Below, piece by piece: positions 5,954 to 60,359 of a stretch of DNA of 60,359 nucleotides. Source of the DNA: Chloroflexota bacterium (lineage in GTDB: Bacteria > Chloroflexota > Limnocylindria > Limnocylindrales > CSP1-4); assembly GCA_003141245.1 (NCBI GenBank), contig PLLE01000012.1, positions 1,259 through 61,617 on the forward strand, read 5' to 3'. Under the pieces are notes generated by a model. The model saw only the letters and a list, made by a program, of their open reading frames with translations, had not been told where the DNA came from and searched no databases. The first letter of the stretch is position 1. Each line of letters starts with the position of its first letter. Position numbers and translations under genes: made by a program.

Positions 5954-6329
5954 GGGCGACCCCCAAGGATGACGGCGCTAGACCCCCCTTCTCGGGAGTC
6001 AGTATCTAGCACCAAGACGCTACACGATACCGTGGAAAATGGCGAGCGAAGGGCGAGTCCCACGACGTGGGCCGGAATCGAATCGGCATCCGGCGCAGCA
6101 GCGACGCCCACCAGCCCGCCCGTCGAGTTCATGCCGACGCGAGGCAGGGACATTCGAGCCGGTCGGACTGTCGATCTCGATGAATCGTGTACACTTAGCG
6201 CCTTCGTGAACGAATGGGCGCTCCGGTCGGCGTCCCGGTAACGCACCGTCCGATCCCGATCCACTCTCTTGCCCTGACCGGTCCCGCTGGACGAAAACGC
6301 GGGTGGGCCACGTCAGGAGCCTTCTTCTC
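5954..6329. promoter_or_regulatory. Divergent promoter region with possible long helicase leader
   Basis: This 376-base gap separates a minus-strand secreted protein from the plus-strand DEAD-box helicase. It holds no gene. A -10-like TACACT lies at 6190-6195 on the plus strand, which would leave a leader of about 130 nt before the helicase, as is common for RNA-helicase genes under temperature control. I see no convincing -35 element. Confidence 0.35.
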
Positions 6330-8042
6330 ATGCCTACCGATCAGCTCGGCCTTGTGCCCGAGCGTCCTTCAGCGCTCGGCCAGCCCGGGCTCACGTCCGT
6401 GCAGCCTTCCTCGTTCGAACAGCTGGGGCTGACGCCTGAGCTTCTGCGCGCGGTGGTTGCCCAGGGCTACATCGAGCCGACGCCAGTCCAGGCCCAATCG
6501 ATCCCGATCGTGCTTGCCCGCCGCGACCTCCTCGCCAGCGCCCAGACGGGCACGGGCAAGACTGCGGCATTCGTGCTCCCGATCCTCCAGCTCCTCAACG
6601 CCAGCCGGCCGGCGCCGCGCCCGATGTCGCCCGGCCAGCTTCGGCCGCGCGGCTCAACGGGCCTGCCGATCCGCTGCCTGGTGCTGACGCCCACTCGCGA
6701 GCTGGCGCTCCAGATCGAAGAGAGCGTCCGGACTTACGGTGCGGGGCGGCCCATCCGCTCCACCACAATCTACGGCGGAGTCGGCTTCCAGCCGCAGGTC
6801 AACGCGCTGCGTGGCGGCCCGGAAATCGTCGTCGCCACCCCCGGTCGACTCCTCGACCATGCGGGCCAGGGAACGATCGACCTCGGGTCGGTCGAGATCC
6901 TCGTCCTGGACGAGGCCGACCGAATGCTGGACATGGGCTTCATTCGCGACATTCGCCGGATCCTCGCTCTGCTGCCCCCGCGCCGTCAGAACCTCCTCTT
7001 CTCGGCCACCTTCTCGGACGAGATCCGAGAGTTGGCGGACGGCCTCCTGCACCAGCCGGCGCACGTCCAGATCGCGCGCCGCAACTCCGTGATCGAGCTC
7101 GTTCGCCAGGTTGCCTACCCGGTCGATCGCGAACGCAAGCGCGAATTGCTGAGCCACCTCATCAGCAGCGGCCGAATCGACCGGGCGCTCGTCTTCGCTC
7201 GGACCAAGCACGGCGCGAACCGCCTGGCAGAGCAGCTCGGCCACGACGGAATCAGCGCGGCGGCGATCCACGGCAACAAGAGCCAGGCCCAGCGGGTTCG
7301 CGCACTCGGCGACTTCAAGGCAGGACGGGTCGCGATCCTGGTGGCCACCGAAGTCGCGTCGCGCGGTCTCGACATCGAAGGCCTGCCTCATGTCGTGAAC
7401 TTCGAGCTACCGACGGTCGCCCAGGACTATGTCCACCGGATCGGTCGAACGGGTCGCGCCGGCATGGAGGGCGACGCCGTGTCGCTCGTGTGCATCGACG
7501 AGAACACCCTCATGGACGACATCGAGACCCTCCTGCGCCGGCCGGTCCGGCGCGAGGTCGTACCGGGCTTCGAGGTCGATCGCTCGATCCGTCGCGAGCC
7601 GATCCGCCAGCGCAGCGGTGACGTTCGACCGACCGCGGGCCGGCGCGCTCCGGCTCGCCAGGCGGCGCCCGGCGGGTTCCGTCAGCCTGCGCCGAGCGCA
7701 CCGCGTCAGGCGGCGCCGGGTGGGTTCCGTCAGGCTTCGGCGCCTTTGGCCGCGCCGGGCGGGTTCCGTCAGGCCGCGTTCGGTGCTGCCCGTCAGTCCG
7801 CCCCGAGCACGCCGTCGATCGGGTATGCGCCGGCTCGTCGGCCGGCCGGCAACTCCGCGTCCGCAACACGGCACGGCTCCTCGGCGCGGCCGACTGCGAG
7901 CCGCGGCTACTCCCGCCCCATGCCGACAGCCCGCCCTGGCGAGCGCGGTGCGCCACATGCATCGCTGCGCCCGGAGCGCGGAACGGCCTTCGTCTCGCTG
8001 CCGGGAGAGCGCATCGCACGTCAGGGCAACCGCCAGGGCTGA
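6330..8042 (+). CDS. DEAD-box ATP-dependent RNA helicase (RhlE-like)
   Basis: A 570-residue cytoplasmic RNA helicase for ribosome assembly or RNA turnover. The Q motif precedes motif I (AQTGTGKT, ~71-78); [16 protein letters not shown] (~194), [15 protein letters not shown] and HRIGRTGR (~368) follow in canonical order, ending near residue 400. The last ~160 residues are a basic, disordered Arg/Pro/Ala/Gly tail with three [10 protein letters not shown]-like repeats, as in many RhlE-type helicases where tails bind RNA. I chose ATG 6330 because AGGAG lies 10 nt upstream; a GTG at 6303 is in frame but lacks a site. Confidence 0.9.
7665..7772 (+). repeat. Short repeats encoding the helicase tail
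   Basis: A 21-bp element encoding APGGFRQ occurs at 7665-7685, 7713-7733 and 7752-7772, with one or two differences between copies. The uneven spacing (48 and 39 bp) suggests slippage or unequal recombination in the disordered tail. Confidence 0.75.
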
Positions 8043-8160
8043 CTTGTCGCCGCCAGCTGGGACTGCAGGCGCGCATCCATAAGCCGGAGAGAACGGCCGG
8101 CTGATAATCTCCAATCGAGCCCCGCGCCCGCCGGAGACCAGCCCTTCTCGAGGCCTGAGC

Positions 8161-10104
8161 TTGTCCGCCACCGCAGCCCCCGAACGCCTGCTCGAAGACC
8201 TCAACCCCTCGCAGCGCGAGGCCGTCACCGCGACGTCGGGACCTCTCGCGATCATCGCCGGCGCGGGCTCGGGCAAGACGCGGGTCATCAGCCGGCGGGC
8301 GGCGTACGCGATCGAGACCGACGCGGTCCCGGCCGACCAGATTCTGCTCGTGACGTTCACCGACAAGGCGGCGGGCGAGATGGTCGAGCGGATGGCCTCG
8401 CTCGGCCATCGTGGCGTCCTGGCCCGCACGTTTCACGCCGCCGCTCTTGCCCAGCTGCGCCACTTCTGGCCGAGCCGGCACGACGGCGCGCCGCTCCCGG
8501 CCACGCTCGAATCGAAGCTGCGCCTGCTCGTGCCGCTCATTGGCCGGCTGCCGGGCGGGTACCGGTTCACGCAGGCGAAGGACATGGCGGACACGATCGA
8601 ATGGGCCAAGGTCCGCCGCATCCGGCCTGAGCAGTGGGCCCGCGAAGGCGGCGATCGAGCGCCGATACCGGCCGAACTGTTCGCCCGCGTCTATCGCGAC
8701 TATGAGCGGGCGAAGGCAGAGGCGGGCCTGCTCGATTTCGAGGACATGCTCGTCCAGACGGTCGAGCTGCTCGAAGGCGACTCCGAGGCTGCCGCCCTCG
8801 TCCGATCTCGCAAACGCTGGTTCAGCGTCGACGAGTACCAGGACACGAACCCGCTGGCCGAGCGGCTCCTCGAGTTGTGGCTCGGAGAGTCACGCGATCT
8901 GGCGGTCGTCGGCGACCCCGACCAGACGATCTACACTTTCACCGGCGCCACGCCGGAGTTCCTGCTGGGCTTCGCCGAGCGGCATCCAGGCGCGCCCACG
9001 GTCAGGCTCGCCGAGAACTACCGCTCCAGCCCGCAGATCCTCGAGCTCGCCAACCGGATCCTCGCCGGAGGCGGGCGGGGCCCGCTGCGGGCGACGCGGC
9101 CGGAGGGGCCTCCGCCCTCGGTCCGTCGGCTTCCGGACGTAGAGGCGGAACTCGCCGCGATCGTCGCCTGGATTCGCGCCGTTGCCGTGTTGGGGGTGGC
9201 GCCGACGGAGATGGCCGTGCTCGTCCGGATCAACGCCCAGCTGCCGGCCATCGAGGATGCGTTGACCCGCGCCGGAATCGGGTTCACCGTTCGCGGCCAG
9301 CGGTTCTTCGAGCGCCGTGAGATCCGCGAGGCACGGCAGATCCTGCGGCACGTTCGGCCCGCGGAGACTGGCGGTGCTCTCGTCGCCGCAATCGAGCGAC
9401 TATTCGTCGAGCGGCTGGGGTTGGACGACGTGGCCGCCGACGCAGGCCAGGAAGGTCGAGAGCGAGCCGCGTCGCTCGAACTGTTCCTGGGCATCGTCGA
9501 GGACCTCGGGACCGCCGACCCTGAACTCACGATCGACGCCGTCCTCGCCGAGCTCGATCGTCGCCACGCGGCGGAGGCGGCCGCCTCGACCGACGGCGTG
9601 AACCTGCTCACGTACCACCGGGCGAAGGGCCTCGAATGGGACGCCGTCTACCTGCCGGCGCTCGACGAGGGCCTGCTGCCGATCCGCCAGGCGCAGGAGG
9701 ATGAGGAGGTCGCCGAGGAGCGCCGCCTGCTGTATGTAGGGATCACCCGCGCACGGCGGTTCCTGGCCCTGTCCTCATCGTCGCGCCGACCGTCGCGGTT
9801 CCTGGCGGCCATCGAGCCGCCGCGGTCGACGGCGCGCCGCGTCCGCGTTCTGCCCGGGCCGCCCGTGGCCACGGCCGTGATCCCTGACGACAGTCTGCTC
9901 GAGGCGCTCCGCCGCTGGCGCCGCGAGCGCGCATCCACGGACGGCGTGCCGGCGTACGTCGTCGCCCACGACACGACGCTCGCCGAGATCGCCGACGCTC
10001 TCCCACGCTCCCTTCCCGCGCTCCGTCGCATCCGTGGCATGGGCCCGACGAAACTCGAGCGCTATGGCGCGGAGATTCTCGCTGTCATCGAGAGCGCCGG
10101 ATAG
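8161..10104 (+). CDS. UvrD/PcrA-like superfamily 1 DNA helicase with HRDC domain
   Basis: A 647-residue ATP-dependent 3'-5' DNA helicase for repair or fork maintenance. Walker A is GAGSGKT (34-40), Walker B is in DEYQDTNP (~223), then VGDPDQTIYTFTGA, ENYRSS and a C-terminal LTYHRAKGLEWDAVYLP motif and VGITRAR. Residues ~575-647 form an HRDC-like helical domain (LLEALRRWRRERA ... IRGMGPTKLERYG), an arrangement known from actinobacterial UvrD2-type helicases. The start is TTG, with GAGG 7 nt upstream. A -10-like TAATCT at 8104-8109 may be its promoter. I cannot tell UvrD2 from PcrA by function. Confidence 0.88.
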   Translation: MSATAAPERLLEDLNPSQREAVTATSGPLAIIAGAGSGKTRVISRRAAYAIETDAVPADQILLVTFTDKAAGEMVERMASLGHRGVLARTFHAAALAQLRHFWPSRHDGAPLPATLESKLRLLVPLIGRLPGGYRFTQAKDMADTIEWAKVRRIRPEQWAREGGDRAPIPAELFARVYRDYERAKAEAGLLDFEDMLVQTVELLEGDSEAAALVRSRKRWFSVDEYQDTNPLAERLLELWLGESRDLAVVGDPDQTIYTFTGATPEFLLGFAERHPGAPTVRLAENYRSSPQILELANRILAGGGRGPLRATRPEGPPPSVRRLPDVEAELAAIVAWIRAVAVLGVAPTEMAVLVRINAQLPAIEDALTRAGIGFTVRGQRFFERREIREARQILRHVRPAETGGALVAAIERLFVERLGLDDVAADAGQEGRERAASLELFLGIVEDLGTADPELTIDAVLAELDRRHAAEAAASTDGVNLLTYHRAKGLEWDAVYLPALDEGLLPIRQAQEDEEVAEERRLLYVGITRARRFLALSSSSRRPSRFLAAIEPPRSTARRVRVLPGPPVATAVIPDDSLLEALRRWRRERASTDGVPAYVVAHDTTLAEIADALPRSLPALRRIRGMGPTKLERYGAEILAVIESAG

Positions 10105-49969: not shown

Positions 49970-50326
49970 ATGACCGGCATCTGGTACGTGCTTGGCTTGG
50001 CCGCCGCGGGAGTCGGCTTCGTATTCCTCGTAATCGGCCTGGCCTGGCTCATCTCGCACCGCAACCACGGCGACCGCCACAAGGGCATGCCGTATGAAAG
50101 CGGCATCGACACCTTCGGCGACACCTGGGGCCGGTTCGGTGTCTCCTTCTACGTCTACGCCCTTCTCTTCGTTGCCTTCGACGTGGAGGTGGTCTTTCTC
50201 TTCCTGTGGGCGATCGTGTTCCGAAGCCTGCTGCTGGGCGGCCTCGTGAGCATGGGCACCTTCGTGCTCGTGCTCCTGCTCGGCCTGGCCTACGCCTGGC
50301 GGAAGGGAGTCCTGACGTGGCGGTAG
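49970..50326 (+). CDS. nuoA: NADH-quinone oxidoreductase subunit A
   Basis: A 118-residue membrane subunit of complex I with three helices (~5-28, ~60-80, ~88-108). The conserved loop is MPYESGIDTFGDTW, followed by FYVYALLFVAFDVEVVFLFLWA with the Asp/Glu pair in the second helix. ATG 49970 has GGAG 4 nt upstream; GTG 49967 would lie too close. First gene of the operon; overlaps nuoB by 10 nt. Confidence 0.93.
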   Translation: MTGIWYVLGLAAAGVGFVFLVIGLAWLISHRNHGDRHKGMPYESGIDTFGDTWGRFGVSFYVYALLFVAFDVEVVFLFLWAIVFRSLLLGGLVSMGTFVLVLLLGLAYAWRKGVLTWR

Positions 50327-51051
50327 GCGATCGTGACCCGAGGGGCGGCAAGGCGGCGCGGGCTGCCGGAGAAGCGGCCGGGAGCCGGCTCGCACCCCTC
50401 GCTCCGGGCGATCTGACCGCGCCGATAGTCGTCCCGAACACGCTCTGGCAGGCGACCAACCCGCTCGCATACGACGGCGGACGTCCGACCGAGATCACCC
50501 ACCTGCGCGAGTTCGGCCAGACGGAAGCCGGGCGTCGCGACGACCTTCGTTGGGGAGCGCTCCAGATCGTACCCACCAAGGCCGACTACATACTCGATCT
50601 CATCCGGGCGAACAGCCTCTGGCCGCTCCTTTCGGGCCTGGCCTGCTGCGCCTTCGAGATGATGTCGGGCGCCACCAGCAAATTCGACATGGACCGCTGG
50701 GGCATGTTCCCGTTCAGGGCCTCGCCCCGCCAGTCGGACGTGCTAATCGTCGCCGGGACGCTCACGACCAAGATGTCCGGGCCGCTTCTCCGGCTGTGGG
50801 AGCAGATGCCCGAACCCAAATGGTGCGTCGCCCTGGGTGACTGCACCGTTTCGGGCGGCCGCTACAAGCGCAGCTACTCCACGGTCCAGGGGATCGACCG
50901 GATCATGCCCGTAGACGTGTACATTCCCGGCTGCCCGCCCCGGCCCGAAGGGCTGATCTACGGCATGCTTCAGCTCGGTCAGCTCGTCAAGGACCGCCGC
51001 GGCCACTGGGACGAGCGCGAGATCGGCCCCACGGTACCGGACAAGATCTGA
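50317..51051 (+). CDS. nuoB: NADH-quinone oxidoreductase subunit B
   Basis: A 244-residue peripheral-arm subunit carrying terminal cluster N2. Ligands are the tandem Cys 110-111 (LACCAFEMM), Cys 176 (GDCTVSGG) and Cys 206 (PGCPPRPE), all present. The first ~75 residues are an extension beyond the usual ~160-180-residue protein. GTG 50317 has GGGAG 7 nt upstream and overlaps the end of nuoA. Intact N2 means the Q module should work. Confidence 0.93.
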   Translation: MAVGDRDPRGGKAARAAGEAAGSRLAPLAPGDLTAPIVVPNTLWQATNPLAYDGGRPTEITHLREFGQTEAGRRDDLRWGALQIVPTKADYILDLIRANSLWPLLSGLACCAFEMMSGATSKFDMDRWGMFPFRASPRQSDVLIVAGTLTTKMSGPLLRLWEQMPEPKWCVALGDCTVSGGRYKRSYSTVQGIDRIMPVDVYIPGCPPRPEGLIYGMLQLGQLVKDRRGHWDEREIGPTVPDKI

Positions 51052-51054
51052 CCG

Positions 51055-51612
51055 ATGGATCGTTCGCTCAAGCGCCGACTCGAAGCGCGCCTCAGCTCGC
51101 AGCTGCGCGGGCCGGTTCGCCAGCGCCACGATCAGACCGAGATTCGGATCGGGCCGGGCGACGTGCCGGACGTGCTCCGCACCCTGCACGACGCCGTCGA
51201 TCTCCGCTTCGAGATCCTGGCCGACCTGGCCGGCGTCGACACGGGCCAGGAAATGCAGGTCGTGTACCACCTCTGGAGCGAAACCGCCTCGGACTGGCTG
51301 CGTGTGATCGTCGAGGGGATCTCGCGCGACGACCCGCGCTGCCCATCCGCAACCTTCCTATGGATCGGGGCGGAATGGCCCGAGCGCGAGGCCTACGACA
51401 TGTTCGGCATCGTCTTCGAGGGCAACCGCGACCTGCGCCGCATCTTCATGCCGCCCGACTACACCAGCTTCCCGCTCCGCAAGGACTTCCTGCTGCCCGA
51501 CGACGCGGCCCGATCCCCGGGAGCCGGGGTTCGGCACGTCGAGCGACCCCACGCCCCGGCCGTCGTGGCCGGAGATCCCGCGGCCGGCATCCGCCGGGCG
51601 CCGGCGAGCTGA
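51055..51612 (+). CDS. nuoC: NADH-quinone oxidoreductase subunit C
   Basis: A 185-residue 30-kDa-type subunit. The signature is ATFLWIGAEWPEREAYDMFG, then LRRIFMPPDYTSFPLRKDF. The C-terminal ~40 residues (GVRHVERPHAPAVVAG...) are a low-complexity extension. It is a separate gene from nuoD, 3 bp after nuoB. Confidence 0.92.
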   Translation: MDRSLKRRLEARLSSQLRGPVRQRHDQTEIRIGPGDVPDVLRTLHDAVDLRFEILADLAGVDTGQEMQVVYHLWSETASDWLRVIVEGISRDDPRCPSATFLWIGAEWPEREAYDMFGIVFEGNRDLRRIFMPPDYTSFPLRKDFLLPDDAARSPGAGVRHVERPHAPAVVAGDPAAGIRRAPAS

Positions 51613-51620
51613 GGACGGAG

Positions 51621-52979
51621 ATGCCGACCCGCCAGCGTGCCACGCAACCCGACGGTGCCACGCAACCCGACGGTGCCACGCAACCCGCCCACGCCGCCCG
51701 GACCTCGCAGGCTGCCAGAGCCTCGCAAGCCGCCACGGCCAAGGCGCAGCGGCAGAGGCCGCCCGAGCAGTACCGGTCCGACGACGACCCTCGGATCATG
51801 CTCGATCGCGAGGTCGGCGCCGACCTGTTCGAGCCGATCCCTCCGTATCCGGTTCGGACCGAGCGCGAAGCCGAGTTTTACACCCGCGGCGACGGCGAGA
51901 TGTTCCTCAACGTCGGCCCGCACCACCCGGCCACGCACGGCGTCCTGCGCCTCGTCCTCAAGCTCTCCGGCGAGCAGGTCGTGGACGTCGACCCGGTCCT
52001 GGGCTACCTCCACCGCGGCGTCGAGAAGATCTGCGAGAACTCGGACTACTACCACGTCATCGACCAGGTGGATCCGCTCGAGTACGTCAGCTCGCTCTTC
52101 CAGGAGTGGGCGGCCGTGCTCGCGTTCGAGCAGCTCATGGACGTGGAGGTCCCGCCCCGCGCCGAGTACATCCGCGTTCTCACCTCGGAGCTTCTGCGCG
52201 TCTCCAGCCACACCCTCTTCATGGGCTTCCTGGCCCTGGACCTGGGCGGCCTGGCACCCATCCTGTACAGCTTCATCGAGCGCGACGAGATCGTGGAGAT
52301 GCTCGCCGCCCTCACCGGCGCGCGGATGCTCTTCAACTACTTCCGCATCGGCGGCGTCAACGGCGACCTGAACCACGAGTTCCTGAGCCGCCTGGGCGAC
52401 TGGATGAGCCGCGCGGCCAAGCAGACCGAGGCCAACACCGGGCTGCTCAACGAGAACGAGATCTTCGTCCGACGAGCCCGCGGCGTCGGCATCCTGGATC
52501 GGGAGATGGCGCTCCGGTTCGGAGTCACCGGCGGCAACCTGCGCGCCTCGGGCGTGCCCTTCGACGTCCGCCGAGCCCATCCGTACAGCGTCTACCCGCA
52601 GCTCGACTTCAACGTCCCGACTCGTCTGGAAGGGGACTCGCTGGCTCGCTACCTGATCCGCATGGACGAGGTCCGCGAGTCGATCAGGATCATCGACCAG
52701 TGCCTCCACAACATGCCCGACGGGCCGGTCATGGCCAAGCTGCCGCGACTGCTGCGGCCGCGTCCGGGCCGAGCCTGGGGCGCGGTCGAGGGCCCGCGCG
52801 GGATGCTCGGCGTCTACGCCATCAGCGACGGCAGCGACCAGCCGTTCCGCTTCCGCATCCACGACCCGAGCTTCCTGAACCTCGCCGTCGTCCCGTACCT
52901 GCTGCCCGGCAACCTGCTCGCCGACACCATGGCGATCGTCTCATCCCTCGACCCGGTCCTGGGCGGGATCGATAAGTGA
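51621..52979 (+). CDS. nuoD: NADH-quinone oxidoreductase subunit D
   Basis: A 452-residue 49-kDa-type subunit forming the quinone site with NuoB. It has NVGPHHPATHGVLRLVLKLS (the quinone-binding His in GPHHPATHG), the LHRGVEK segment (Arg 132) and a C-terminal SLDPVLGGIDK. The first ~45 residues are a Gln/Ala/Thr-rich extension with an ATQPDG repeat. Arg 132 corresponds to the Arg methylated by NDUFAF7 in mitochondria, and a MidA-like gene lies upstream. Confidence 0.95.
   Translation: MPTRQRATQPDGATQPDGATQPAHAARTSQAARASQAATAKAQRQRPPEQYRSDDDPRIMLDREVGADLFEPIPPYPVRTEREAEFYTRGDGEMFLNVGPHHPATHGVLRLVLKLSGEQVVDVDPVLGYLHRGVEKICENSDYYHVIDQVDPLEYVSSLFQEWAAVLAFEQLMDVEVPPRAEYIRVLTSELLRVSSHTLFMGFLALDLGGLAPILYSFIERDEIVEMLAALTGARMLFNYFRIGGVNGDLNHEFLSRLGDWMSRAAKQTEANTGLLNENEIFVRRARGVGILDREMALRFGVTGGNLRASGVPFDVRRAHPYSVYPQLDFNVPTRLEGDSLARYLIRMDEVRESIRIIDQCLHNMPDGPVMAKLPRLLRPRPGRAWGAVEGPRGMLGVYAISDGSDQPFRFRIHDPSFLNLAVVPYLLPGNLLADTMAIVSSLDPVLGGIDK
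51639..51692 (+). repeat. 18-bp tandem repeat encoding ATQPDG
   Basis: Two perfect 18-bp units (51639-51656, 51657-51674) and a third diverging in its last part (51675-51692) encode the N-terminal extension of NuoD. Confidence 0.88.
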
Positions 52980-52989
52980 GGGCCATCCG

Positions 52990-54336
52990 ATGACCTTCGC
53001 GACCCGCACCTGGGACCGTATGTCCCTGACCTCGCGGCTCGTCGCCATTCTGGTGCCGCTGGCCTTGATCCTGGCGGTGGGTAGCGTCGTCGGGATCCTC
53101 GTGATCCTGCCGGCGACGATGGACTTCCTGCGGGCGAACCTGCCGCTGGTGCGTTTCGCCGTCGCGGTCGTGGGGATCCTGGTCCTGACGATCCCGACGG
53201 CCTTCGTCCTGATCTATCTGGAACTCAAGATCATCGCCCGCATGAACCTGCGGGTCGGCCCCAATCGGATCGGGCCGTGGGGCGCGGCGATGAGCCTGAT
53301 CCACGGCTTCAAGGTCCTCTCCAAGGAGGACTTCACCCCGACCGGCGCCGATCTGCCGGTCTTCACCCTGGCCCCGGTCGTGACCTTCCTGGCGAGCGTC
53401 ATGACCCTGCTGGTCATTCCGTTCGCGCCCGGGCTCTTCGGCCAGGACTTGAACATCGGCCTGCTCTACTTCTTCGCCATGGGCGGCCTCTCGGTCCTGG
53501 GCCTGCTGATGGCCGGCTGGGCGAGCTTCAACAAGTACTCGCTCCTGGGCGGGCTCCGCGCGGCGGCGCAGATCGTCAGCTACGAGATCCCGCTGACCCT
53601 CTCCGTCGTGGGCGTGGTCATCCTGGCCGGCACGATGAGCATGAACCGCCTGGTCCTGGCCCAGTCCGGCTCGGCCCTCGACTGGTTCGCGTTCAAGCAG
53701 CCCCTGGCGGTGCTCATCTTCTTCATCGCCGCCACGGCCGAGGCGAACCGCACCCCGTTCGACATGACGGAGGCCGACTCGGAGATCGTGGCGGGCTTCG
53801 CCACCGAGTACTCGGGGATGCGCTTCGGATTCTTCTTCTTCGCCGAGTACGTGAACGTCTTCATCGTCTCGGCGCTGCTGGCGACGCTCTTCTTCGGCGG
53901 CTGGACGGCCCCCTTCAACTGGCCCTGGCCGTACAACCTCAACTGGCTGGACGCGTCGGGGATCGGCGTGCTCTGGATCCCCATCGCCATCATCGCCACG
54001 GTCGTCGTGGCCGACGTCGTCGCGGTCGCCGTCCGCCTGGTCGGCGGCAGGAGCTGGTCCGCCCCGAGCGCCTTCGGTCTGGGCTTCCTCGCCGCCGGAG
54101 TCGGCATCGCGGCCGTGGTCGGCCTGGCCTGCTTCATCGCCTTCGACTGGGTCCAGGGCATCTTCTGGTTCATGACCAAGACCTACGTCTTCGTCTTCAC
54201 CTTCGTCTGGATGCGCGGAACGCTGCCGCGCGTCCGGGTCGACCAGCTGATGGGCTTCGCCTGGAAATGGCTGCTGCCCGCTTCGCTTCTCAACCTGTTC
54301 GTGACGGCTACCGCCGTCGTCCTTCTCAACCAGTGA
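52990..54336 (+). CDS. nuoH: NADH-quinone oxidoreductase subunit H
   Basis: A 448-residue membrane subunit that couples the quinone site to proton pumping. It has LIYLELKIIARMNLRVGPNR (helix 1 end and loop), ANRTPFDMTEADSEIVAGF (acidic loop) and MRGTLPRVRVDQLM near the C-terminus. About 9-10 helices. The N-terminal ~60 residues hold an extra helix. Intact, so quinone reduction and coupling are expected. Confidence 0.95.
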   Translation: MTFATRTWDRMSLTSRLVAILVPLALILAVGSVVGILVILPATMDFLRANLPLVRFAVAVVGILVLTIPTAFVLIYLELKIIARMNLRVGPNRIGPWGAAMSLIHGFKVLSKEDFTPTGADLPVFTLAPVVTFLASVMTLLVIPFAPGLFGQDLNIGLLYFFAMGGLSVLGLLMAGWASFNKYSLLGGLRAAAQIVSYEIPLTLSVVGVVILAGTMSMNRLVLAQSGSALDWFAFKQPLAVLIFFIAATAEANRTPFDMTEADSEIVAGFATEYSGMRFGFFFFAEYVNVFIVSALLATLFFGGWTAPFNWPWPYNLNWLDASGIGVLWIPIAIIATVVVADVVAVAVRLVGGRSWSAPSAFGLGFLAAGVGIAAVVGLACFIAFDWVQGIFWFMTKTYVFVFTFVWMRGTLPRVRVDQLMGFAWKWLLPASLLNLFVTATAVVLLNQ

Positions 54337-54343
54337 GAGCGCG

Positions 54344-55159
54344 ATGAGCTTCATTCCGGGCCTGGGCATCGCAAAGGGGATGGCGCTGACGCTGCGCCGT
54401 TTCTTCCAGCCGAAGGCCACCATCCAGTACCCCGAAACGACCCCGGACATCGCGGTTCGCTTCCGCGGCCGGCTCCAGCTCCTTTACGACGAGTTCGGCA
54501 ACCTCAAGTGCGAGACCTGCTTCCAGTGCGCGCAGGCCTGCCCGGTCGAGTGCATCGACATGGGCGGGCACGACACGAAGAACCGCTTCTACACCCACTG
54601 GGGCCCGGCCGAGACGTATGGCGAGCGACGCGAAGAGTCCGCCCTGCGGCGCTCGGGCCGGCCGGTGCCCGATCAGGCCTTCGTCCACTTCGAGCCGATC
54701 GACCTGGTCGCGGTCGAGCAGATCCTGGAGCGGCGCGACTACGACCCGGGCGAGATGCTGCCGATCCTCGAGGAGGTCCAGGCCGCGTACGGCTACCTCC
54801 CGGTCGCCGCGATCAAGCACATCAGCCATGTGACCGGCGCCTCGTACGCCCTGGTCTACGGCACGGCGACCTGCTACGGCCACCTGAGCTTCGAGCGCCG
54901 GGCCCGAACGATCGGCGTCTGCCGCTGCACCAGCTGTCTGCTGGCCGGGTCCGGCCGGATCGCGACCGCCATCGGCGAGGGCCTGGGGACGAAGCTCGAC
55001 GGCGCGCCCGTCGGCGGCGTCGCCCTCCAGCAGCTCCCCGCCCACCTCCCCGGCGCGGCGTCGCCGCTCGTGACGCTGGACGGCAAGCCGCAGACCGACG
55101 TGACCGAGAGATCCGCCGCCGTATGGAGCCGCTCCCTGGCACGGAAGACCGTGGCATGA
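54344..55159 (+). CDS. Fused NuoI-like and NuoE-like subunit with missing cluster motifs
   Basis: A 271-residue fusion. Residues 1-110 are NuoI-like (ALTLRRFFQPKATIQYPE), with one 4Fe-4S motif C56-C59-C62-C66 (CETCFQCAQACP). The second motif expected after it is absent; sequence jumps to the post-motif tail (ERREESALRRSGRPVP). Residues ~118-250 are NuoE-like (thioredoxin fold): EILPILEEVQ-type helix, VYGTATCYGH and VCRCTSCLLAGS (C193, C198; C195 extra), but the second C-x3-C pair is replaced by LPAHLPGAAS. So at most part of the usual FeS set can form. It overlaps nuoF by 4 nt. Confidence 0.82.
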   Translation: MSFIPGLGIAKGMALTLRRFFQPKATIQYPETTPDIAVRFRGRLQLLYDEFGNLKCETCFQCAQACPVECIDMGGHDTKNRFYTHWGPAETYGERREESALRRSGRPVPDQAFVHFEPIDLVAVEQILERRDYDPGEMLPILEEVQAAYGYLPVAAIKHISHVTGASYALVYGTATCYGHLSFERRARTIGVCRCTSCLLAGSGRIATAIGEGLGTKLDGAPVGGVALQQLPAHLPGAASPLVTLDGKPQTDVTERSAAVWSRSLARKTVA

Positions 55160-56529
55160 CCAACGCGAACCTCCTCCCAACGCCCGAGAAGTGGCCGCAC
55201 CTGCTGCTGCCCGCGGCCAGCGCCGAGCTGGCGGCCGGGGCGGCGGCTGGGGCTGGGGCGGCGAATCCCGCCGACCTGGACGCCGCCGTCAAGGCGGGCG
55301 CCTTCGCCGGCCTGACCGAGGCCATCCGCGGCATGACCGCCGGCGAGATCGTGGCGGCGCTGGCCAGGTCCGAGCTGCGCGGCCGCGGCGGAGCGGGCTT
55401 CCCCACGAGCGAGAAGTGGCGCGCCTGCGCCCTGGCCCAGGCCGACCGCCACTACGTCGTCGTCCACGCCTACCAGGCCGATCCGGCCGTCTTTACCGAT
55501 CGCGTGCTGCTGGAGCGCAATCCTTTCGCGGTTCTCGAGGGAGCGGCCATCGCCGCCGTCGCTGTCAGCGCGTCTGAGATCGTCGTGGCGATCCGGGCCG
55601 AGGCCACGGCAGCCATCGCCGTGCTGGAGGCCGCGATCGCCGCGGCCGAGCACGCGGGCTACCTCGGCGAAGACGTCCTGGGCAGCGGCCGCGAGATCCA
55701 CGTCGAGGTCAAGCCGCTCCAGGGCGCGTACATGCTCGGCGAGGAAACGGTGCTGCTCAAGGGCATCGAGGGCAAGCGCGGCCAGCCCGAGCAGCAGCCC
55801 CCGTACCCCACGACCCGCGGCCTGTACGGCCGGCCGACGCTCGTCCACAACCCGCAGACCCTGGCCGTCATCCCGGGCATCATCACCGGCGGCCCCGGCA
55901 CGCACTCCGCCGCCGGATCGGCGCACGGCCAGGGCACCGTCCTGGTGCAGATCTCCGGCTCGGTCGCCAATCCGGGCCTGGCCGAGGTGCCGCTGGGCAC
56001 GCCGCTGGGTGAGATCGTGGCCCTGGCCGGCGGCGTTCCCGCGCCGCATACCCTCAAGGCCCTGCTCGTGGGCGGACCCTCGGGCGGAATCCTGCCGCCT
56101 GACGCCGAGAAGATCGCCTACCAATTCGAAGCGCTCGAGGCGGCCGGCGCCCACATGGGCTCCGGGTCGATCGTCGTGATCGACGAGCGCAGCTGCCTCG
56201 TCGATCTCGCCTCCGTGCTGACTCGTTTCTGCGCCGATCAGGCTTGCGGCAAGACGATCCCGTGCCGGATCGGGCTGCGCCGCCTGGCGGAGATCGGGGC
56301 GCGGATCTGCGAGGGCCAGCCCCGAGACGACGAGATCGTCCGCCTGACGGATCTCTCCGCCGACATCGTGGCCAGCCGCCTGTGCGACCACGAAGGCCGC
56401 TCCACCCTGCCTCTCCTGAGCATCGTCCGGTACTTCCGCGACGAGCTCGACGCCCACATTCTCCGCAGCACCTGCCCCGCCGGGATCTGCCATCCGATGG
56501 CAACCTCCCGTCCCGGGGCCGTCTCCTGA
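55156..56529 (+). CDS. nuoF: NuoF-like subunit with degenerate NADH site and N3 cluster
   Basis: A 457-residue 51-kDa-type subunit. The FMN loop LRGRGGAGFPTSEKW (74-88) is kept. The NADE-x-EPG motif is replaced by HAYQADPA (104-111); YICGEETAL is YMLGEET (193-198); NNVET is HNPQT (231-235). The N3 cluster motif CGKCTPC reads CGKTIPC: C364 and C370 remain, the middle Cys is Thr 367, and the distant Cys is C410. The fold (SLBB region ~265-330) is preserved. NADH oxidation here is doubtful; it may be structural or altered in specificity. Overlaps the fused gene before it by 4 nt. Confidence 0.85.
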   Translation: MTNANLLPTPEKWPHLLLPAASAELAAGAAAGAGAANPADLDAAVKAGAFAGLTEAIRGMTAGEIVAALARSELRGRGGAGFPTSEKWRACALAQADRHYVVVHAYQADPAVFTDRVLLERNPFAVLEGAAIAAVAVSASEIVVAIRAEATAAIAVLEAAIAAAEHAGYLGEDVLGSGREIHVEVKPLQGAYMLGEETVLLKGIEGKRGQPEQQPPYPTTRGLYGRPTLVHNPQTLAVIPGIITGGPGTHSAAGSAHGQGTVLVQISGSVANPGLAEVPLGTPLGEIVALAGGVPAPHTLKALLVGGPSGGILPPDAEKIAYQFEALEAAGAHMGSGSIVVIDERSCLVDLASVLTRFCADQACGKTIPCRIGLRRLAEIGARICEGQPRDDEIVRLTDLSADIVASRLCDHEGRSTLPLLSIVRYFRDELDAHILRSTCPAGICHPMATSRPGAVS

Positions 56530-56537
56530 GGCATCCG

Positions 56538-59234
56538 ATGCGAGAAGCGACCCGCCGCCCCAGCCCGAGCGCTCCGCCCGCTCTTCCGAGCCCGTCCGCG
56601 AGCGCGTCGATGACGCCGCCGGCCGTCGTTCCCGGACCCCTGCCGGTCCAGGCACCTGCTCCGTCCGTGACTGGCCTCAAACCCGCCGCCAACGAGAAAC
56701 CGGTCTGGAACCGCAAGGCCGGCCGGGTCGACAGCCGCCCCGACTCGAAGGCGCCGCGCGACACGGTCACGCCGATCGACGACTCGCCCGAAGAGCGGCT
56801 CATCACGACGCAGAGCCCGCAGCGCCCGCTCTCGACGCCGACCATCAAGCTCCAGATCGACGGCCGCGAGGTCATCGGCATTGAGGGCCAGACGATCCTG
56901 GAGGTCTGCCGCGACAACGGCATCGACGTCCCGACGCTCTGCTACGAGCCCAAGCTGCCCGGCTTCGGGGCGTGCCGCATGTGCGTCGTCGAGATCGCGG
57001 GTGAGGACCGCCCGGCGATCTCGTGCGCCCGCGCCGCCGCCACGGGAATGGTCGTCCAGACCCAGACCGAGGAGGTGCGCCGGCTGCGGCGCACGAACCT
57101 CGAGCTGATCTTCAGCGACCACAACGCCTACTGCCTGCCGCCCTGCCAGAACAAGTGCCCGAGCCACATCGACATCCCCGGCTTCCTCAAAGCCAACGCC
57201 GAGGGCAAATTCCGCGAGTCGGCGCGAATCTTCAAGCGTACGATTCCGTTCCCCTCCATCCTGGGGCGTGTCTGCCCGGCGCCGTGCGAGGAGCACTGCC
57301 GCCGCGACGAGGTGGACGAGGCGATCGCCATCCGCGACAGCCACCGCTACGCCGGCGACATCGTCCTGGCGGCCCAGGAAGACGGCATCGAGCCGCCGCT
57401 GCCCTTCGAGGCGCAGCCCGCGACGGGCAAGCGCGTGGCCATCGTCGGCTCCGGCCCCGCCGGCATGGCCGCGGCCTACTACCTGCTCCTGTCCGGCCAC
57501 CACGTGACCGTCTTCGAGCGCGACGCCGCCCCCGGCGGGATGCTCCGCTACGGCATCCCGGAGTACCGCCTGCCCAAGGCCGAGGTGCTCGAGCCCGAAT
57601 ACGAGGCCGTCTGGCGGCTGGGCGCGAAGCTGGAGCTCAACCAGGAGCTGGGCCGCGACTTCAGCCTCGACGACCTGCGCGACCGGGGCTTCGACGCCAC
57701 GATCGTCGCGACCGGCTGCTACGAGACGAACAAGATCGGCGTCCCCAACGACACCGCCGAGGGCGTCATCGAAGGCCTGGACTACCTGCGCATCGCCACG
57801 TTGGGCCTGCCCTACCCGGGCCACGCCGGCAGCCGGGTCGTCGTCATCGGCGGCGGCTTCACCGCCATGGACTGCACGCGCACCTCGATCCGCCAGGGGG
57901 CGAGGGAAGTCACCCTCGTCTACCGCCGTGACATGAAGGACATGCCCGCGGCCAGCGAGACTCACGAGGCCATGGAAGAGGGCGCGAAGATGATCTTCCA
58001 GGCAGGCCCGACACGCGTCCTGGTCGACGCCCGCAACCGTGTCGCCGGCGTCGAGTTCATTCGCATGCGCCCCGGCGCTCCGGACGCCTCCGGCCGGCGC
58101 CGCCCCGAGCCGGCGCCCGGAACCGAATTCGTCGTCGAATGCGATCGCGTCCTGCTCGCCATCGGCCAGGGCCCCGACCTGTCGTGGATCGGCCCCGGCA
58201 ACGAGGACGTCGAGGCCGTCAAGTGGAAGCTCAAGGCCGACGCGGTGACCTTCGAGACCGGCCGGCCCGGCGTCTTCGGCGCCGGCGACGTCCGCATCGG
58301 CGCCGCGACCGTGGTCCAGGCGATCGCCGAGGGCCGCCGCTGCGCCTACGCCGCGGACGCCTACCTGCGCGGCATGGACCTCTCCGAGCTGCGATCCCGC
58401 GAGCCGCTGGTCGAATGGGACCCTGGCTTCCTCTCGATCGTCCCCTATACGGACGAGGTCAAGGAGCCTCGCCATCGCCTGCAGGCGATGCCGGCGGAGG
58501 AACGCACCAGGAGCTACGTCGAGTACGAGATCCCCTACACCCAATCCGAGGTGATGGCCGAGTCGAGCCGCTGCCTGCAATGCACCTGCGAGGCGATCGG
58601 CTACTGCGACCTGCGCAACCTGGGGATCGAGTACGGAACCACGCTCAAGACCCTGGAGCCGGGCCATGACGAGGGTGCCGGCTTCCGCAGCGTCACCGAG
58701 AACCGCTTCACCGGCACCAATCACGACTACGTCCGCGACGACAGCCACGCCTTCATCCTGCGCGAGCCGTCGCGCTGCATCGACTGCGGGCGTTGCGCCG
58801 CGGTCTGCGCCGACGTCGTCGGCGCGGCCTGCTACGACTTCATGCGCATCGGCTTCGACACGCTGGTGACGACGCCGCTCGACATGAGCCTCAACGACAC
58901 GCCGTGCGTCTCCTGCGGCCGCTGCGCCGAGACGTGCCCGACGGGCGCGCTCATGCTCAAGCCGCGCGTCCTGGAGAAGTACGACGTCGACGAGAGCCGC
59001 TGCATCCTGTGCGGCATCTGCGTGGACGCGTGCCCGTACGACGCGCTCCGCGGCGGCCCGGACAACGAGCTCGCCCACACCGACCGGTCCGAGCCGATGA
59101 TCGATCTCATCGGCCTGGCGGCGATGGCCGGCGAAACCGAAGTCACCTACATAGCGCGCGAGCGCGACTGGATGGCGCACGCCGTGGCCGACGGTCGACT
59201 CGCGGCCGTCGCCACCCCCGGCGACGGAAAGTGA
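56538..59234 (+). CDS. 2Fe-2S/GltD-type flavoprotein/polyferredoxin in place of NuoG
   Basis: An 898-residue protein. Residues 1-100 are a disordered extension. A 2Fe-2S domain follows (C135, C146, C149, C163: LCYEPKLPGFGACRMC). Then a GltD-type FeS segment (C199, C203, C207, C246, C250, C254: GRVCPAPCEEHC) and two Rossmann folds: FAD loop GSGPAG (304-309) and NAD(P) loop VVIGGGFTAMD (~436). The C-terminus has CLQCTC (~678), CIDCGRCAAVC (~747), CVSCGRCAETCP (~790) and CILCGICVDACP (~822). The molybdopterin-like domain of NuoG is missing. It resembles NuoG/FdhA-like or StnC/NfnB-like oxidoreductases and is likely the NAD(P)H entry point. Confidence 0.85.
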   Translation: MREATRRPSPSAPPALPSPSASASMTPPAVVPGPLPVQAPAPSVTGLKPAANEKPVWNRKAGRVDSRPDSKAPRDTVTPIDDSPEERLITTQSPQRPLSTPTIKLQIDGREVIGIEGQTILEVCRDNGIDVPTLCYEPKLPGFGACRMCVVEIAGEDRPAISCARAAATGMVVQTQTEEVRRLRRTNLELIFSDHNAYCLPPCQNKCPSHIDIPGFLKANAEGKFRESARIFKRTIPFPSILGRVCPAPCEEHCRRDEVDEAIAIRDSHRYAGDIVLAAQEDGIEPPLPFEAQPATGKRVAIVGSGPAGMAAAYYLLLSGHHVTVFERDAAPGGMLRYGIPEYRLPKAEVLEPEYEAVWRLGAKLELNQELGRDFSLDDLRDRGFDATIVATGCYETNKIGVPNDTAEGVIEGLDYLRIATLGLPYPGHAGSRVVVIGGGFTAMDCTRTSIRQGAREVTLVYRRDMKDMPAASETHEAMEEGAKMIFQAGPTRVLVDARNRVAGVEFIRMRPGAPDASGRRRPEPAPGTEFVVECDRVLLAIGQGPDLSWIGPGNEDVEAVKWKLKADAVTFETGRPGVFGAGDVRIGAATVVQAIAEGRRCAYAADAYLRGMDLSELRSREPLVEWDPGFLSIVPYTDEVKEPRHRLQAMPAEERTRSYVEYEIPYTQSEVMAESSRCLQCTCEAIGYCDLRNLGIEYGTTLKTLEPGHDEGAGFRSVTENRFTGTNHDYVRDDSHAFILREPSRCIDCGRCAAVCADVVGAACYDFMRIGFDTLVTTPLDMSLNDTPCVSCGRCAETCPTGALMLKPRVLEKYDVDESRCILCGICVDACPYDALRGGPDNELAHTDRSEPMIDLIGLAAMAGETEVTYIARERDWMAHAVADGRLAAVATPGDGK

Positions 59235-59274
59235 GCCCGGCACCAGTGATCCACGGCGAGAAGGGCGGCGAGGC

Positions 59275-59823
59275 ATGCCGATAGGCGACACGGTCCCGCT
59301 TACGGCGATCCGCTGGGACGACATCTTGTTCGTCGTGCTGGCGGCGATGCTCCTGGGTTCGGCGCTGCTGGTCGTGACCATGCGCGACATCATTCGCTGC
59401 GGTCTGGCGATGATCGCCGCGTTCGCGTCCCTGGCCGGCATATACGTCCTGCTCGGCAATCCGCTAATAGCGGCCACCCAGGTCCTGGTCTACATCGGCG
59501 CGATCAGCGTCCTGGTCCTGTTCGCGATCATGCTGACCCAGACCAAGAACGCCCCCGCTCGACTGGTCTTCCAGACTCAGGCCTGGGCGGCGGCCCTGGC
59601 CGCGGTCGTGATCGCGGCGGTCATCGCCATCAGCGTCACAGCCACGACCTGGCCCTCCGCCGGCGCCGTGGCCTGGACCGACACCACCAGGGTCGCCGAG
59701 CTGCTCTTCAGCGACTATCTCCTGCCGTTCGAGGTCGTGAGCGTGCTGCTCACCGCCGCCGTCGTGGGTGGGGTTCTGCTGGCCAGGCGCGATCCCGATG
59801 AGAACGAGGAGGATCGACCGTGA
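59275..59823 (+). CDS. nuoJ: NADH-quinone oxidoreductase subunit J
   Basis: A 182-residue membrane subunit with five helices. [20 protein letters not shown] and [20 protein letters not shown] carry the helix-3 Gly/Tyr features of NuoJ. It begins 40 bp after the NuoG-like gene and overlaps nuoK by 4 nt. Membrane module appears intact. Confidence 0.92.
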
Positions 59824-60131
59824 GCGGTTCGCTCGACTCCTACCTGGTCCTCTCCGGCCTGCTCTTTGCGATCGGCACCTTCGGCTTCCTGGGCCGCCGC
59901 AACGCGATCAGCATGCTCATGTCGATCGAACTGATGCTCAACGCGGTGAACCTGACCGTCGTCGCGTTCGGGGCCTTCGTGAAGCCGCTCCAGACGCACG
60001 CCGCGGTGATCGCCCTGCTCGTGATCGCCGTGGCGGCCGCCGAGGCCACGGTCGGTCTGGCGATCGTCATCGCGATCTATCGGAACCGCAAGACGCCTCT
60101 CGTCGACGAATACGACTCGATGAGCGAATGA
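59820..60131 (+). CDS. nuoK: NADH-quinone oxidoreductase subunit K
   Basis: A 103-residue membrane subunit with three helices. Conserved acidic residues lie in [14 protein letters not shown] (Glu of helix 2) and [14 protein letters not shown] (Glu of helix 3), both needed for proton pumping. GTG start, overlapping nuoJ by 4 nt. Confidence 0.95.
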
Positions 60132-60138
60132 ACCGACG

Positions 60139-60359
60139 ATGACAGCCCTGCTTCCTCTCATCCCGCTCCTCCCGCTCGGCGGGTTCGTCCTGACCGGCCT
60201 GGTCGGCCGGCAGTTCCCCAAGGAAGCGCATCGGATCGCCGTCTGGGCCGTCGTCGGGTCGTGGCTCGTGGCCTCTGTCGTGGCCGCGATGACCCTCATC
60301 CACGTCTCCCCGTTCGGCCCGGAGGGCGCCGGCATCACCCTCTGGACGTGGATCCCGGC
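60139..60359 (+). CDS. nuoL: NADH-quinone oxidoreductase subunit L, 3' truncated by window
   Basis: The first 73 codons of an antiporter-like subunit: MTALLPLIPLLPLGGFVLTG and a second helix (IAVWAVVGSWLVASVVAAMT), typical of NuoL. The start lies 7 bp after nuoK. The gene continues beyond the window, with nuoM and nuoN expected after it. Confidence 0.85.
   Translation, partial: MTALLPLIPLLPLGGFVLTGLVGRQFPKEAHRIAVWAVVGSWLVASVVAAMTLIHVSPFGPEGAGITLWTWIP

Follow-up and report, generated by a model that had tools for sequence, protein, structure and literature searches.

Complex I is among the best-studied of enzymes. In its canonical 14-subunit form (NuoA-N / Nqo1-14) the NuoI subunit, which carries both N6 clusters, is normally a single polypeptide. 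Exchanges of the complex I head are known, and include Nuo-Bfu and the 11-subunit forms. The 11-subunit complex I and the NDH-1 of cyanobacteria and chloroplasts have no canonical NADH module; they lack E, F and G, and the donor is ferredoxin or unknown. In Nuo-Bfu, a complex I with the bifurcating BfuABC found for example in Geobacter sulfurreducens, the NADH module has been exchanged for a Hyd-like one that keeps the FMN and the bifurcating clusters and has no GltD; a division of NuoI is not mentioned in the accessible part of that account (PMC9304861). A survey of complex I variants from 2025 treats CD and BCD fusions along with split gene clusters; Chloroflexota are not mentioned in it (PMC12361115). 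We found no published split NuoI or GltD-type complex I head in the open-access literature searched.

Related subunits are found in the Sporomusa-type Nfn transhydrogenase StnABC (PDB 8oh5; relatives 9bov and 9n5u). This soluble enzyme comprises NuoE-like, NuoF-like and 2Fe-2S/GltD/NuoG-like subunits, and bifurcates at the FMN in StnB. The electron path in StnC runs from NADPH to the FAD, and then by way of C7, C6, C5, C4 and C3 to StnB (PMC10482914).

We have analyzed a stretch of 60,359 nucleotides (the window) that forms the end of a contig (C7:1259-61617) in a Chloroflexota genome of 2.54 Mb that is 92% complete. From position 49970 to the contig end the gene order is A-B-C-D-H-[I/E]-F-[GG]-J-K-start of L, where GG is our shorthand for the large 2Fe-2S/GltD/polyferredoxin gene of the nuo operon. 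All of these genes lie where a preliminary description of this DNA had placed them. The features are as follows.

49970..50326, + strand: nuoA (PF00507, 3.7e-32)
50323..51051, + strand: nuoB (PF01058, 2.1e-25; start codon inferred)
51055..51612, + strand: nuoC (PF00329, 5.5e-36)
51621..52979, + strand: nuoD (PF00346, 2e-82; start codon inferred)
52990..54336, + strand: nuoH (PF00146, 1.2e-105)
54344..55159, + strand: nuoI/E fusion, N-terminal NuoI half followed by a NuoE-like domain (PF01257, 1e-16, at residues 124-256)
54509..54544, + strand: NuoI motif 1, CETCFQCAQACP
55156..56529, + strand: nuoF of Stn/HydB type with altered FMN/NADH site (PF01512, 2.4e-35)
55465..55485, + strand: HAYQADP replacing NADExEP in NuoF, by comparison with canonical NuoF/HydB controls
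56245..56265, + strand: CGKTIPC replacing CGKCxPC in NuoF, with N3 ligand 2 now Thr, by comparison across variant rows
56538..59234, + strand: GG, containing 2Fe-2S, GltD, 2x4Fe-4S and the C-terminal half of NuoI (Pfam; alignment to 9bov_A and StnC)
57138..58373, + strand: GltD/NfnL-like FAD and NAD(P)H domain of GG (PRK12814, 1e-160; NfnL and GltD structures)
58776..58955, + strand: HydA/NuoG-type 4Fe-4S motif pair of GG, CIDCGRC.. and CVSCGRC.. (alignment; TIGR02512 at residues 740-812)
58959..59117, + strand: C-terminal half of NuoI in GG, with motif RCILCGICVDACP at 58998-59036
59275..59823, + strand: nuoJ (PF00499, 2.1e-32)
59820..60131, + strand: nuoK (PF00420, 1.6e-25)
60139..60359, + strand: start of nuoL, cut by the contig end (translation)

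The membrane and quinone-reducing core of the enzyme is present. As had been described, NuoA, B, C, D, H, J, K and the start of L are there, and the translated NuoB has all of its N2 ligands (CC, GDC and PGCP); the quinone-site sequence GPHHPATHG is likewise intact in NuoD. Antiporter-type nuoL/M/N genes stand at the start of contig C35 (PF00361 matches at C35:211-4738). The locus thus shares with canonical complex I the A-D, H and J-N core with its N2 and quinone-site motifs, but differs from it in that NuoI is divided in two, NuoE is joined to NuoI, another protein stands in for NuoG, and NuoF has lost the NADE sequence and usually one N3 ligand too. Like the 11-subunit forms it has no canonical NADH module, but counterparts of E, F and G are present; it has a dedicated flavoprotein, and its NuoI is not whole. 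The reading that we prefer, with a probability of about 0.7, is that the genes encode a complete proton-pumping complex I in which a Stn/Nfn-type module takes the place of the NuoEFG head, NuoI is split, and NAD(P)H, most likely NADPH, enters at the FAD of GltD. The architecture is well supported: the genes, the lost motifs, the move of the NuoI half, its conservation, the purifying selection and the kinship with Stn can all be read from sequence. The function we infer, and with it the electron path, the preference for NADPH and proton pumping.

The arrangement is shared by relatives. Close relatives lie in the Chloroflexota class Limnocylindria (Ca. Limnocylindrus, Ca. Aquidulcis, Chloroflexi CSP1-4, GWC2_73_18 and many MAGs), and in a sample of 400 Chloroflexota genomes the fused I/E was found in 57 of the 61 in-class genomes. 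A shorter version occurs in about 37 genomes of the same sample belonging to five other families (f11, f19, f29, f33 and f36), with genomes of up to 13.7 Mb; these are probably Ktedonobacteria and their kin, and we refer to them as Ktedonobacteria-like. Families f1, f2 and f4 all keep the order A-B-C-D-H-IE-F-GG-J-K. In f3 and f5 there are two loci, one made up of B-D-IE-F-GG and the other containing C, H, J and K (in f5, A was also seen). Most of the five other families have a canonical nuo operon with full-length NuoI, together with a variant that is split into A-C-D-H and B-IE-F-GG; f29 has its variant in one place, as A-B-C-D-H-IE-F-GG. Canonical and variant enzymes side by side in these genomes offer a natural controlled comparison. 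In a NuoD tree the variant copies cluster with those of Limnocylindria and away from canonical NuoD, with support of 96/94 for the clade of the variant with f3 and f5, and 91/84 for the wider grouping. The variant is the only complex I found in Limnocylindria, notably in Limnocylindrus-type genomes; in f2, which has genomes of 0.8-1.2 Mb and is probably Limnocylindrus, the variant NuoF is the only NuoF. Three relatives (G022, G241 and G372) lack the I/E fusion, and G022 also lacks nuoH; its complex I may have been lost, or may be missing from the assembly.

Judged from the alignments, a break separates the two ferredoxin motifs of NuoI, each half being fused to a different neighbour, and the subunit has not decayed. 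Residues 12-79 of I/E match the NuoI model TIGR01971 at positions 1-67 of 121, where the match ends. Positions 71-116, with the second motif, are matched by the C-terminus of GG (3.9e-11), and in the profile search this tail scores higher with NuoI models than with generic ferredoxin models. On Thermus Nqo9 the I/E half aligns to 6-68 and the GG half to 86-128. The complementary division of the profile recurs in every genome of the wider set in which both halves were scored, and the canonical full-length NuoI (model positions 1-121) of the same Ktedonobacteria-like genomes provides an internal control. There is exactly one CxxCxxCxxxC motif in 80 of 80 I/E homologues, and there are three in 51 of the 52 GG proteins. 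Since two of the three are the usual HydA/NuoG pair, one orphan motif is left in GG and one in I/E, in place of the canonical single chain with two CxxCxxCxxxCP motifs. The fusion of NuoI to NuoE noted in the preliminary description is correct (NuoI 1-67, then the NuoE domain), but the second motif, taken there to be lost, is at the end of GG. Similarly, NuoG has indeed been replaced by a 2Fe-2S/GltD protein with three ferredoxin motifs, but what was called its polyferredoxin tail ends in the second half of NuoI. A conserved linker, GPAETYGERREESALRRSGRP, occupies I/E residues 80-120 (window 54581-54703), replacing the second half of NuoI ahead of the NuoE part.

In Nqo9 the N6a cluster is held by three motif-1 cysteines and the last cysteine of motif 2, and N6b by the reverse arrangement. 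Motif 1 of I/E presumably supplies three ligands of N6a and one of N6b. With this pattern of ligation a split NuoI would have N6a and N6b each held by two chains, and we infer that the halves reassemble in the complex, I/E and GG ligating the two clusters jointly. Could the motifs in I/E and the GG tail instead be generic ferredoxin pieces, each binding a cluster of its own, with no reassembly of NuoI? AlphaFold2 gave low confidence for both regions. For I/E alone residues 23-115 had pLDDT <50 while the NuoE part was confident, and for GG alone the mean pLDDT was 53.5 with a poor tail, using an MSA that was too uniform; the low score of the NuoI half of I/E is perhaps weakly compatible with a missing partner. 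Against this, the resemblance of the GG tail to NuoI is specific and extends past the cysteines, as is clearest from the Ktedonobacteria-like copies (FELSFFNRFG..LEKEDLA compared with YELAAYYPEN..HKEQLLE), and the complementary coverage of the NuoI profile holds in every family examined. Moreover, if the second motif were missing, N6b would be left with a single ligand and the cluster chain would no longer reach N2. We consider independent ferredoxin pieces unlikely.

Among solved structures, GG is best matched by 9bov_A, StnC (8oh5_C) and NfnA (9n5u_A). Residues 103-832 align to 9bov_A (2.4e-163), and residues 103-833 to StnC 4-700 (4.3e-143); where StnC runs on into its FdhF-like domain, GG runs on into the NuoI half. 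By homology with StnC, GG corresponds to the subunit with 2Fe-2S, GltD and NuoG-like clusters, and is predicted to bind NADPH. The GltD domain, its nucleotide motifs and the sequence YRR..MPA are near-invariant among GG proteins, and YRR..MPA is common to the NADPH enzymes StnC, NfnL and GltD. K170 of StnC, a ligand of the FAD-proximal cluster, aligns with an invariant histidine, H269, in GG. Two tandem GG genes were seen in one Ktedonobacteria-like genome (L149:3421-5838 and 6064-8490), and a second GG-type tail match at G322:C1:10337774.

Motifs have been lost in the remaining parts of the head. The loss of NADE-x-EPG from NuoF had been recognized before and is confirmed here: the aspartate of NADE is D in eight of eight canonical NuoF/HydB controls, whereas every variant row has Y, F, I, C, V or M at this position. 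Thr or Ser replaces the second N3 cysteine in 72 of the 76 Limnocylindria rows that have a residue at that site (T59 S13 C3), f4 has Ala, and Ktedonobacteria-like copies retain the cysteine; all four N3 cysteines are kept in some relatives. The NuoF of the window thus has neither the NADExEPG FMN/NADH site nor the four N3 cysteines of the canonical subunit. It does keep the Gly-rich loop and GEE, so that weak FMN binding may be possible. At 457 aa it has no N- or C-terminal ferredoxin domains, and its nearest solved relatives are 9bov_B, HydB and StnB. In the NuoE-like part, whose best solved relatives are bifurcating hydrogenase and Nfn gamma subunits, the 2Fe-2S ligands are partly or wholly lost, with one Cys pair or none left.

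The likeness to StnABC pointed out previously is thereby upheld for E, F and GG, all of which have best solved relatives of Stn/Nfn/Hyd type. The view of these genes as an altered nuoEFG is not: to judge by its motifs, this is a module of Stn type whose bifurcating FMN site has been lost. Unlike StnABC, the module sits in a nuo operon, lacks the 2Fe-2S cluster of E and the B2-B5 clusters of an FMN-binding, NAD-reducing NuoF-like subunit, and carries half of NuoI in place of the FdhF domain. The same losses bear on the idea of a bifurcating or confurcating complex I that takes electrons from NADH and ferredoxin to menaquinone. E and F are of Hyd/Stn type, and Nuo-Bfu has been proposed for Geobacter and others (PMC9304861); but Bfu requires FMN, a 2Fe-2S in BfuC and the B2-B5 clusters in BfuB, whereas the present module has an altered FMN site, has lost the 2Fe-2S and carries no extra ferredoxin domains in F. 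The operon does not contain a complete BfuBC core (FMN and six clusters), and we have rejected this reading as highly improbable, there being no FMN motif or extra clusters in NuoF.

So many lost motifs in E, F and I might indicate decaying remnants, one of the outcomes that could have overturned the earlier interpretation. However, I/E, F and GG have dN/dS values of 0.12-0.28 when compared with close relatives, similar to nuoB, C and H, and consistent with purifying selection. Because of these values, the conservation across the class and beyond, and a NuoI motif that has merely been relocated, decay is rejected, and we give it next to no credence.

We propose the following mechanism for a complex I with a Stn/Nfn-type head. 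The canonical NuoEFG head would have been replaced by a module from a transhydrogenase of this type, with the first half of NuoI on the NuoE-like scaffold and the second on the end of GG, in place of the FdhF-like domain of StnC. The donor, NAD(P)H and most likely NADPH, would deliver a hydride to the GltD FAD. From there electrons would cross the Fe-S clusters of the GltD and NuoG-like parts, reach N6a/N6b between the two chains, and go on by way of N2 to quinone; this flow would drive the usual antiporter arm. NuoF, without productive FMN and NADH binding, would act mainly as a scaffold.

The GltD FAD remains the likeliest point of entry, as first suggested, but NADH and NADPH, left equal at that stage, can be told apart to some extent: the YRR motif and the genome context favor NADPH. 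PntB, a subunit of the proton-translocating transhydrogenase, is present in 11 of 11 Limnocylindria tested, and absent from both Ktedonobacteria-like genomes tested, which also have canonical complex I. The same architecture might nevertheless use NADH at the GltD site. NADH is the usual substrate of complex I, and it needs some oxidizer, NDH-2 having gone undetected in most Limnocylindria with the PF22366 profile, an insensitive one that also misses E. coli Ndh. With YRR..MPA common to NADPH enzymes and PntB universal among the Limnocylindria tested, we hold NADH to be the less likely donor, if a credible one. Reverse operation in vivo, with quinol and the proton motive force reducing NADP+, is conceivable as the Stn module is in principle reversible and complex I can run backwards; but the variant is the sole complex I found in Limnocylindrus-type genomes and PntB already makes NADPH, making this distinctly unlikely.

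By textbook potentials NADPH provides more driving force than NADH for the reduction of menaquinone, so that PntAB paired with an NADPH-dependent complex I could help pumping against a low-potential quinone. This is speculation; it parallels an argument made for Nuo-Bfu (PMC9304861). For the fullest version of our preferred reading the odds appear slightly better than even: an NADPH-dedicated enzyme, the sole complex I of Limnocylindria, with a split NuoI whose two [4Fe-4S] clusters would each be held by two polypeptides, one of them the new flavoprotein, fed by a transhydrogenase that raises electrons from NADH to NADPH, perhaps so that pumping with menaquinone has sufficient driving force. 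A class-wide split of NuoI with fused halves and a changed donor would illustrate how far complex I can be re-plugged, and the split offers a direct test of how its modules dock. If NADPH is the donor, this would be a novel mode of driving a proton pump, and Limnocylindrus-type freshwater plankton would depend on it.

No second complete nuoEFG, the other finding that might have counted against the earlier interpretation, is present in the source genome, where nuoH is found once. The two other NuoF genes were considered for this role and rejected, both being hydrogenase-associated. One is the HydB of a HydABC-like FeFe hydrogenase of group A6 (L004:1808-5718, on contig C21). The other is a NuoF-GltD fusion of 1051 aa (L005:10608-13763, on C14) that adjoins a HoxU-like gene and a NiFe hydrogenase large subunit; this locus possibly encodes another NADP(H)-linked bifurcating hydrogenase.
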